This document shows positions 49,585 to 52,498 of a stretch of 64,000 nt of DNA, in pieces (the first letter of the stretch is position 1; each line of letters opens with the position of its first letter). Both the position numbers and the translations under genes were made by a program. The stretch is from Acidobacteriota bacterium (GTDB lineage: Bacteria; Acidobacteriota; Terriglobia; Bryobacterales; Bryobacteraceae), in assembly GCA_016870995.1 (NCBI GenBank), contig VFZU01000017.1, positions 1 to 64,000 of the forward strand. The letters are read 5' to 3'. The notes below the pieces were generated by a model. That model did not search any database and was not told the DNA's origin. It was given only the letters and a program-made list of their open reading frames with translations.

Positions 49585-50664
49585 TCATTCTCGAAATAGT
49601 TTTGCCGGCAGCGTTTCGAGGCGTAAAGACTGGGTAAAGAACATATTTCCATTACGCCCTCCCTTTTCGTAGAGCACCAGCACCTCACCTGCGCGATTAA
49701 CGGCCAAATCCGAATAGGCCGAGATCCCCAGGTCGACGCGATGCACAACACGCCACGTGCGTCCGTCATCGCGGCTCATTTGCAAACTCAGGTTGCGACG
49801 CTGCGAATTGCGGCCCCTCTTCGACTTCGCTTCCGCATCCACATGATCTGGATTCGCAAACAAGATGGGCTTGCCTTGGCTTGGGTAACGAATCATGCTC
49901 GCCATGCAAACCGGCTCTTGAAGCTCCGATACAAATGTCGGCTGCGACCAACCTCTCGCACCATCAGGGCCAATCACCATCGCACGCCGTAACGCATCGC
50001 TCTCGCTGCGCAGGTTCAACATCACCCTGCCATCGCGCAACTCTACCGCAACGGTCTCACTCGGATTCACAAGATCACCCAAGATGATTTCGCCGGTCTT
50101 CCAATGCTGACCCTCGTCGTCGCTGTAAAGCGTCGAAACTACGCTGGGACGATGCGCCCTGCCTCCGGTGGATAGCCATATAGGCACTAGCAGGCGTCCG
50201 GATCGCAAGCGGATCCCGTGCCCTGGCCCGGTCGCAATCACGTTCCAGTTGTATTGCGGCTTCAGCGCCTCAAACGCAGTCGTAATTTCAACAGGCGCGG
50301 AAAACGTCTTGCCGCTATCAACACTGTGCCGCCAATAAGCCCGCGCGTAGTTGATGCAATAGAGCAAATGGACTTCCCGCTTGCCTTTCCCTGGGATCGC
50401 CACAATATTGTTAACAGTTTGCGTTCCCTCATCGGTGAGCACGACGGAAGGCGTCCAGGTCTTTCCTCCGTCAAGGCTCCTCCGCATCACCAAATCAATA
50501 TCGGCCCAATCTCCCGCACCATCCTTGCGTGCTTCGGCATAGGCCAGCACCGTCCCGTCGCCGAGCGTCAGCAGACCGGGGATCCGGTACGTCTGATACC
50601 CTCCCTGCCCCGCTTCAAACAGATCGAGACTGGCGAGCACCAGCGCAGCGCTAAACCAAACCAT
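49585..50664 (-). CDS. Exo-sialidase-like (GH33/BNR repeat) secreted hydrolase
   Basis: Start at 50664 (MVWFSAALVLASLDLFEAG), preceded by GAGGGG at a five-base spacing. Six-bladed propeller with the FRIP-type motif YRIPGLL (first arginine), Asp boxes SLDGGKTW, SVDSGKTF, SDDEGQHW and SRDDGRTW, ADIDLV for the acid/base Asp, and ETVAVELRDGR. It probably releases sialic acid or related sugars. It begins inside the ABC ATPase gene, so the two are coupled. Confidence 0.85.
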   Translation of the reverse strand: MVWFSAALVLASLDLFEAGQGGYQTYRIPGLLTLGDGTVLAYAEARKDGAGDWADIDLVMRRSLDGGKTWTPSVVLTDEGTQTVNNIVAIPGKGKREVHLLYCINYARAYWRHSVDSGKTFSAPVEITTAFEALKPQYNWNVIATGPGHGIRLRSGRLLVPIWLSTGGRAHRPSVVSTLYSDDEGQHWKTGEIILGDLVNPSETVAVELRDGRVMLNLRSESDALRRAMVIGPDGARGWSQPTFVSELQEPVCMASMIRYPSQGKPILFANPDHVDAEAKSKRGRNSQRRNLSLQMSRDDGRTWRVVHRVDLGISAYSDLAVNRAGEVLVLYEKGGRNGNMFFTQSLRLETLPAKLFRE

Positions 50665-51430
50665 ACCGCCCCTCATGCTCGACAACTTCTAGCCGGGCAC
50701 CGAACAACTCGCTCATCTTCGCTGTAGTCAGCATCTTCGCTTTCGGGCCATCATCGATAATTCGTCCATCCTTCAAGAACGCCACGCGCTCCATCTCCGG
50801 GATGATGTCGCTCAGATGATGCGTCACCAGCACAATCGTCTTGCCACCTCTCGCCTGCAGGCTCACGAGATCATTCAAGTGTTGCTGCGCTGCAAAGTCA
50901 AGGCTGGTCCCAGGCTCGTCGAGCAGTAACGCCTTGGGCGTATGCACCAAAGCTCTCGCCAACAAAATGCGGCGGGCCTCTCCGCTCGACAATTCGTCGG
51001 TCCATCGGTCGGCCAGATGCAAGGCACCCATTTCACGCAATGCTGCATCAGCTAATTCGCGCATCTCCACTGTGACCTCGTGGTAAGGCTCGATCACAAT
51101 GCTATTGAAAAAACCACCCAGCACCAATTCCCGTCCCTTGACGTCGCGCGTTGCCTTGGCCATCCAGTCGTTCGATACAATGCCCAGCCACTGCCGCAAC
51201 TCATCCAGATGCCAGCGCTCCTGCCCGTAGATGCGAACAAAGCTTTCCGGCCGCAACAATGGATACTCCTCCCGCGTAATGACCTTCAGCAATGTTGATT
51301 TGCCACAACCATTGGGCCCGAGGATTGCGATATGCTCGCCATCCTCTATATGCAAAGAGAGGCCGTTTAAGGCCGGCCTCTCTCCGCGAATTACAGTGAT
51401 GTTTTGAACTTCGAGTAAAGGTTCAGCCAC
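50651..51430 (-). CDS. ABC transporter ATP-binding protein (orphan)
   Basis: 259 residues: Walker A GPNGCGKST, a Q-loop region near residue 95, signature ELSSGEARRILLARAL (LSSGE), Walker B ALLLDEPGTSLD and switch His in LVTHHLSD. GTG start at 51430 overlaps the peroxiredoxin stop. No permease is adjacent; soluble orphan ATPases of this kind (ModF/YlmA-like) also occur. Function unknown. Confidence 0.88.
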   Translation of the reverse strand: MAEPLLEVQNITVIRGERPALNGLSLHIEDGEHIAILGPNGCGKSTLLKVITREEYPLLRPESFVRIYGQERWHLDELRQWLGIVSNDWMAKATRDVKGRELVLGGFFNSIVIEPYHEVTVEMRELADAALREMGALHLADRWTDELSSGEARRILLARALVHTPKALLLDEPGTSLDFAAQQHLNDLVSLQARGGKTIVLVTHHLSDIIPEMERVAFLKDGRIIDDGPKAKMLTTAKMSELFGARLEVVEHEGRYGLV

Positions 51431-51978
51431 TAAAGCTTTCCCTTACTCCGTGAACAAGCCGTAACCGCACCGGTTACGTCGACCGCCGTGTTGCCTTCTT
51501 CAATATGGGTGATCTTCCCATCGATATCCACCAAAAAGGTGGCTCGATTGGAGATGCCGCGATCCTTCATCAACACGCCAAAGGCCTCGGCCGTCTTGCG
51601 CGTCGCAAAATCGCTACCCAACGGAAATTCCGGCTTGATCACATTGTCAGCCCAATACTTCAGACTGGGTACGTTGTCGGTGGAGATACCGATCACCTCG
51701 AAGCCCATGTCTTTAAACTTCTGGATACCAGCCTGGTACCCGGTCATTTCCTTCGTTCAACCACCGGTGAACGCAGCGGGGAAAAATGCAACCACCACTC
51801 CGTTCTTGCCCTTATAGTCAGAAAGTTTGAATGGCTTGCCCGTAGTGGTGGGCACGCTGAAATCCGGGGCAGCGTCGCCAACTTTGAGATGCGTCTTCGG
51901 CGGGGCCGGAGCCTGCGCCTGCATCATCATCGTCGAGGAAACGGCCGCGGTCGTGAGAAAAAACGATCGACGTTCCAT
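51430..51978 (-). CDS. Peroxiredoxin with in-frame UGA at the catalytic cysteine, probable selenoprotein
   Basis: Reduces peroxides. Tat-like or lipoprotein-like leader ([20 protein letters not shown]), then the AhpC/TSA fold: [34 protein letters not shown] at 51757-51759 (codon 74), then [14 protein letters not shown] and [19 protein letters not shown] to the stop at 51430. The motif is PxxxTxxU, so the UGA replaces the peroxidatic cysteine. Both sides are intact and in frame. A hairpin at 18-36 bases after the UGA fits a bacterial SECIS. A later cysteine (VTACSR) could resolve. Full length 182 residues. Nonsense mutation or sequencing error are the alternatives. Confidence 0.75.
51723..51741 (-). 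promoter_or_regulatory. Putative bacterial SECIS element after the peroxiredoxin UGA
   Basis: On the coding strand the sequence GGGTACCAGGCTGGTATCC forms a stem of seven or eight pairs (one G.U) with loop AGGCU or GGC. The apical loop lies about 23-27 bases downstream of the UGA. Bacterial SECIS elements are hairpins with a G early in the loop, roughly 16-37 bases after UGA; E. coli fdhF uses a GGUCU loop. The stem also encodes conserved residues (TGYQAGIQ), so chance pairing must be weighed. Confidence 0.6.
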
Positions 51979-51988
51979 ACTGAGAATT

Positions 51989-52498
51989 ATGTCAGACCCG
52001 CGATTCCCCGTTGGGAAGTTTCACTTCTCGCCCTTCCGCTCAGAATCAGATCGACAGGCGGCAATCGCCGAAATTCGCGATTTACCGCGTCATCTCAAAG
52101 CCGCTCTGGAGGCGCTCGGCGAAGACAAACTCGACACTCCGTATCGCGATGGCGGCTGGACGGTGCGCCAACTCGTACACCACATCGCGGATTCGCACAT
52201 GAACGCCTTTATCCGCCTGCGCCTCGGGCTCACTGAAGATAAGCCCACCGTCAAACCCTACAACGAGCAACTCTGGGCCGAACTGCCCGATGCCACGCTC
52301 CCCATCTCATTTTCAGTGGCGATTATTGAGAACCTGCATCACCGCATGACGGTAATGCTCGAACTCACTCCTGCCGAATCGTTCTCAAGAGAATTGGTTC
52401 ATCCGGATAACGGAGTGATGTCTCTCGATCATGTGCTGCAGATGTACGCCTGGCATGGTCGCCATCACGTAGCTCACATCGTCAACGCGCCGCGCTGA
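51989..52498 (+). CDS. DinB/YfiT-family metal-dependent thiol-transferase-like protein
   Basis: Start at 51989 ([20 protein letters not shown]). 169-residue DinB four-helix bundle of the YfiT/BstA group. Three metal-binding histidines are expected in [13 protein letters not shown] and [29 protein letters not shown] is the family signature. YfiT is a hydrolase or bacillithiol transferase in Bacillus; the thiol used here is unknown. Divergent from the peroxiredoxin with only 10 bases between start codons. Its end overlaps the opposing secreted-protein gene by 25 bases. Confidence 0.9.

Follow-up and report, generated by a model that had tools for sequence, protein, structure and literature searches.

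It is almost certain, judging from its sequence, that the window (the whole stretch of 64,000 nucleotides analysed here) contains an intact selenoprotein gene specifying a selenocysteine (Sec)-containing thioredoxin-fold peroxiredoxin, in which an in-frame UGA is read as Sec74. This reading is strongly supported because the Sec machinery is present in the genome, the UGA is conserved in relatives, including close ones, and a SECIS-like hairpin with covariation follows the codon. The original prediction of a selenoprotein is supported on these same three grounds.

Gene layout and protein

The minus-strand frame from 51978 to 51430 contains exactly one internal stop, the TGA at 51759-51757 (residue 74), and the encoded protein ends in ACSRSKGKL*. 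The original prediction had placed this single in-frame UGA on the catalytic Cys of a PxxxTxxC motif, which is indeed where it lies; its coordinates for the gene (51430-51978) also hold, and the strand, which it omitted, is the minus one. Frame 1 of the plus strand over the same positions gives, as judged by eye, unrelated-looking sequence. With TGA read as a residue, Pfam matches to AhpC-TSA (1.1e-33) and Redoxin (5.9e-26) span the stop, which confirms that the protein is intact on both sides of it. As had also been foreseen, an ordinary ORF list splits the gene, into pieces of 73 and 105 amino acids. The AhpC-TSA/Redoxin domain that marks Sec-peroxiredoxins (PF00578, TxxU) is present in the protein, as are the PxxxTxxU motif and the catalytic Arg, and the in-frame UGA sits at a conserved redox Cys site, the position looked for in bacterial selenoproteins. 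Arg145 is what we take to be the catalytic Arg, and residue 74 presumably occupies the site of the peroxidatic Cys of AhpE.

Table 1. Features of the peroxiredoxin gene and its surroundings (window positions)
Feature	Position	Strand	Remarks
Sec-peroxiredoxin gene (almost certain), 182 residues	51430..51978	-	ATG 51978-51976, terminal TAG 51432-51430
In-frame UGA, residue 74, most likely Sec	51757..51759	-	peroxidatic residue of PAAFTGGU
SECIS-like hairpin GGGUACCA-GGC-UGGUAUCC	51723..51741	-	8 bp stem, loop GGC; nt 19-37 from U of UGA
Arg145 codon	51544..51546	-	aligns with Arg of AhpE GIANRGTF; R in 62/62 rows
Cys175 codon, candidate resolving Cys	51454..51456	-	sole cysteine of the protein; C in 62/62 rows
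Putative export-signal-like N-terminal stretch	51913..51978	-	RR pair, Tat-like
ABC-type ATPase	50651..51430	-	neighbour; GTG start overlaps peroxiredoxin stop by one base (TAGTG)
DinB_2 family gene	51989..52498	+	neighbour, divergent; also in same-genus loci L031-L037

The TAGTG overlap recurs in loci L031-L037, which include a sibling with Cys at the site, and is absent in L028, L029 and L038. ABC and DinB neighbours accompany the gene in L023-L027 and L031-L037; within the available flanks, no other locus of the range L023-L060 showed them. The ABC ATPase is followed downstream by a gene for a BNR-repeat (sialidase-like) protein (window 49585-50685, minus strand), whose frame, with a TTG start, overlaps the end of the ATPase gene.

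Selenocysteine machinery

The genome of origin (5.72 Mb in 215 contigs, a draft assembly, 99% complete) was searched for the Sec machinery, a check proposed with the original prediction, and selA, selB, selC and selD, the set looked for in support of a bacterial selenoprotein, were all found. The scores were 467.9 bits for selA (cut-off 267.9), 358.1 bits for selB (cut-off 242.25), 369.4 bits for selD, which has a TGA inside (cut-off 125), and 73.1 bits for tRNA-Sec with the Rfam tRNA-Sec model (cut-off 47). ARAGORN likewise reported a tRNA-SeC with anticodon tca in this genome, and no tRNA within the window itself. The Rfam model also scores tRNA-Ser, as in L016-L018 (43.6-46 bits; tRNA-Ser by ARAGORN), and matches to it in the genomes of relatives that scored no more than about 51 bits were not counted as tRNA-Sec. 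The selenophosphate synthetase encoded by selD (L011, minus strand 2439-1417) is likely a selenoprotein itself, with a GUAS motif (AAGUASK).

The codon at residue 74 in relatives

Cys homologues were aligned, as had been suggested. Codon by codon, the 63 orthologue rows (L028-L090, with L031 the window's own gene) have TGA at residue 74 in 54 cases and Cys in nine (TGC in eight, TGT in one), the window's own gene being counted among the former; the other orthologues are 37-93% identical to the window protein, and those with TGA have a reading frame that is open on both sides of it. With TGA shared by 54 of 63 rows, the UGA site is more than chance. Left out of this count were L023-L027, which were treated as duplicates of L032-L036, their proteins being in agreement, the distant paralogues L091-L094 (TGA) and L097-L100 (Cys), and L095 and L096, which the alignment left without a row. 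Among newly fetched acidobacterial loci residue 74 is TGA in all 29, and these loci together with the 54 rows speak against a one-base mutation.

Close relatives without the UGA had been named as evidence that would count against a selenoprotein. Five of the seven same-genus genomes searched have the UGA form, at 88-93% identity; the named relatives in this identity range are genomes assembled from metagenomes, under the labels Bryobacter, Bryobacteraceae or Acidobacteria. Of the other two, G006 has Cys and in G001 no orthologue was found. Over the 61 genomes searched (own included), a tally by hand gives 48 in which a match stronger than 1e-20 bears TGA, one of them (G058) having a more distant paralogue only; six with the Cys form alone (G006, G021, G023, G033, G034 and G053); and seven without any match of that strength (G001, G009, G017, G022, G027, G031 and G036). 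Both forms occur in G020 and G044. Phylum-wide, 44 of 297 genomes (own included) contain matches with an E-value of at most 1e-25. These matches number 48, of which 45 have TGA (one also TAG) and three lack any stop; the 29 newly fetched loci come from this set.

Other peroxiredoxins with a UGA were met in the same searches. L095 (G018:C245, plus strand) encodes a second peroxiredoxin, AhpC-like, in which the UGA falls in FYPGDFTFVU and a Cys follows in WCPGKP; it likely represents another Sec-peroxiredoxin subfamily within the same bacterial family. G058 carries three divergent peroxiredoxins whose peroxidatic codon is TGA (L091, L092 and L094), and G059 has one (L093). The last of these, with KADTPGU, resembles PrxQ/BCP. 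By eye, the sequences after the UGA in L091-L094 do not share the hairpin register of the window family.

A SECIS-like hairpin

A hairpin of the kind looked for after the UGA of a bacterial selenoprotein gene is present in the window, with 23 nucleotides from UGA to loop (Table 1). According to the passages on the bSECIS model in the 2026 review PMC13188914, the loop has 3-9 nucleotides, with a G within its first two positions, the upper stem 4-16 bp and the UGA-to-loop distance 16-37 nucleotides; the window hairpin fits these loop, stem, G and spacing limits, to which the comparison was confined. Taken alone it is moderately unusual (z -2.82, with 1 of 200 shuffles as good). An Rfam scan of the window returned nothing at the gathering threshold, a null that is not counted against a SECIS.

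Further evidence comes from the alignment, whose hairpin counts derive from related, non-independent sequences and are not probabilities. In the 48 unique Sec rows, pairing holds in 321 of 384 cells (84%), compared with 26-42% when the 3' side is slid by one to three bases, and none of 2000 column shuffles reached this level. Over the nine Cys rows the figure is 30 of 72 cells (42%), with 25-39% when slid. Two-sided changes were seen at pair 24/32 (C-G to U-A, in 13 of the 48 unique Sec rows), at pair 23/33 (A-U to U-A, in two) and at pair 26/30 (A-U to G-C, in one), and point to selection. A fixed hairpin test, which required all four closing pairs to form and a G to lie within the loop's first two positions, was passed by 52 of 54 Sec rows and one of nine Cys rows, and by 25 of the 29 Sec rows outside the set on which it was defined; six Sec rows in all failed it (2/54 and 4/29). 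The outer stem has no single fixed register: pair 19/37 is G-G in 27 of the 48 unique Sec rows, and many Sec-row folds bulge a base there instead. In some Sec rows (e.g. L028, L029, L048 and L051) the lowest-energy fold of 66 nucleotides misses the hairpin.

Alternative readings of the UGA

The UGA might be decoded mainly in another way, by near-cognate readthrough or as Cys via the Sec pathway; alternatively, a 73-residue product ending at the UGA might be the functional one, as a regulated switch. Under selenium shortage, Sec codons are known in general to undergo either readthrough or termination. Moreover, the ABC ATPase gene starts inside the peroxiredoxin stop, and termination at the UGA could perhaps lower its translation. 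This overlap does not need the UGA, however, because the Cys sibling keeps it; a product cut at residue 73 would be without the catalytic residue and the greater part of the domain, conservation is good beyond the UGA, and the hairpin accompanies TGA and not Cys. We regard this family of explanations as very unlikely.

A pseudogene, or a sequencing or assembly error, would need a single base change from a Cys codon to a stop, and the source is a draft assembly of many contigs. The same event would, however, have to account for TGA in 53 other orthologue rows with an open frame on either side and in every one of the more distant loci, as well as for two-sided changes in the hairpin that point to selection, and it is extremely improbable. 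An altered code, in which the genome would read UGA generally as sense, has a negligible chance: we found no point in its favour, 18 of the 33 stop-to-stop frames of at least 300 codons in the window (mechanical frames, not all genes) end at TGA, selA, selB and tRNA-Sec are present, and the UGA falls on a catalytic residue followed by a SECIS-like hairpin. A pseudogene, a sequencing error and an altered code were all rejected on these grounds.

Exchange of Sec and Cys

Among the 61 genomes, selA scored over the cut-off in 54, which by hand tally comprise 45 of the 48 TGA genomes, three of the six Cys-only genomes and six of the seven without an orthologue. The difference between TGA and Cys-only genomes gives a Fisher p of 0.014, kinship being ignored. 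The TGA genomes lacking selA over the cut-off are G005, G024 and G013, the last with two selA pieces, both below it; their assemblies consist of 330 to 1080 contigs. Since half of the Cys-only genomes have selA, Cys does not require its loss.

The cleanest case of a Cys codon without detected machinery, which on sequence grounds is a natural control, is the same-genus sibling G006 (98% complete, four contigs). It has TGC at the site (L037), no selA over the cut-off and no match to the tRNA-Sec model stronger than 4.2e-7, and genes for the ABC ATPase (86% identity) and DinB (74%) flank its orthologue as they do in the window. In a quick protein tree the Cys forms are scattered among the Sec forms. 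The least number of Sec/Cys changes among the L028-L090 rows is seven, a figure that is only rough, with the direction of each change not proven, because few of the 67 inner branches are strongly supported (16) and 29 are open. L047 (G034:C18:141757-142263), from a genome that has selA, combines TGC with a complete hairpin (8/8 pairs). The simplest reading is that it probably switched recently from Sec to Cys, and that the hairpin is the trace of this event.

Conserved residues and proposed mechanism

Arg145 and Cys175 are conserved in all 62 distinct proteins (53 Sec, nine Cys), Thr or Ser occupies residue 71 in 62/62, Pro67 is found in 50/62, and the region after the UGA is well conserved. 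No Cys beyond Cys175 and the active site occurs in 54 of the 62. The conservation of Cys175 and the scarcity of other Cys suggest a Sec/Cys pair, in which Cys175 would resolve the oxidised Sec.

The N-terminus makes export of the peroxiredoxin out of the cytoplasm likely. With start codons picked by a simple rule (L047 has no ATG in range), 31 of 62 rows have an RR pair among their first 10 residues, and the best 12-residue hydrophobicity within the first 35 residues is 1.6 or higher in 54 of 62; that of the window protein itself, 1.28, is below this line. A structure prediction from a 7-row alignment was poor (mean pLDDT 57).

We propose that the hairpin just 3' of the UGA recruits SelB and Sec-tRNA-Sec, so that Sec would be inserted at residue 74 instead of termination, and that the N-terminal signal probably takes the protein out of the cytoplasm. 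Sec74, positioned by Thr71 and Arg145, would then attack peroxide and form a selenenic acid, which Cys175 probably resolves as a selenenylsulfide; a thiol reductant would recycle the latter, these last two steps being suggested by residue conservation and the chemistry of the family. In several lineages, some without detectable Sec machinery, the codon is Cys instead and the hairpin has mostly decayed.

Known and new

Sec-peroxiredoxins of the TxxU kind are an established family of bacterial selenoproteins, as the relevant passages of PMC13188914, PMC1794560, PMC1088965 and PMC5029168 indicate. For Acidobacteria, four selenoproteins in three families have been counted (PMC1794560), with no names in the relevant passages, and three known selenoproteins are listed for the acidobacterium Occallatibacter riparius in the pertinent part of PMC12013277, whose main text does not contain the full word peroxiredoxin. 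The string Acidobacteri is absent from the main text of PMC13188914. A search of the accessible literature on selenoproteins or selenocysteine in Acidobacteria, Solibacter and soil bacteria revealed no acidobacterial Sec-peroxiredoxin in titles and abstract openings.

As far as this literature goes, an acidobacterial subfamily that is probably exported, has a single conserved C-terminal Cys and appears to have switched repeatedly between Sec and Cys would be new. The fuller picture, namely an exported (periplasmic) subfamily distinct from PrxU, with a catalytic pair of Sec and C-terminal Cys, many Sec/Cys swaps (at least seven) and one Cys member retaining an intact SECIS-like trace, is offered tentatively, at somewhat under an even chance. 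If true, it would provide a natural series for asking why an antioxidant enzyme keeps or loses Sec. The family also offers a clean comparison of Sec with Cys: orthologues are close and share their gene order, one sibling lineage is without detected machinery, and one Cys form retains the hairpin. Gene callers that end at the UGA leave two useless pieces, and an antioxidant enzyme spread over much of a major soil phylum can easily escape notice.

Comparison with known systems

PrxU, the name that had been mentioned for Sec-containing peroxiredoxins of bacteria, was reportedly described from Eubacterium acidaminophilum by Sohling in 2001. The window protein belongs to the broader TxxU kind of Sec-peroxiredoxin; in the NCBI sense (model NF040737) the name PrxU does not apply to it, and membership was rejected, as the gene scores 72.8 bits, below the curated cut-off of 270. 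The export-signal-like N-terminus and the single C-terminal Cys also set the protein apart from the Sec-peroxiredoxins already described. With the Sec-peroxiredoxins (PF00578, TxxU) as presented in the relevant part of PMC13188914 it shares the Prx domain and Sec at the peroxidatic place of PxxxTxxU; its host phylum, Acidobacteriota, is one for which no description of such a Prx was found in the literature. The same source, in the passages concerned, treats two selenoprotein types of a related fold group with other redox motifs, the Prx-like thiol:disulfide oxidoreductases (UxxC) and Prx-SUH (CxxU, NF045827), and against the latter model the window gene scores 41.2 bits (cut-off 298). The nearest solved structure by sequence (1.5e-17) is mycobacterial AhpE (Rv2238c; PDB 5id2, 1xvw). 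The match extends from residue 27, after the signal-like stretch, to residue 159, before Cys175, and the two proteins share the FFPxAFTGxC and NRxTF motifs, residue 74 aligning with the Cys in FFPLAFTGIC (5id2); AhpE thus has Cys where the window protein almost certainly has Sec.
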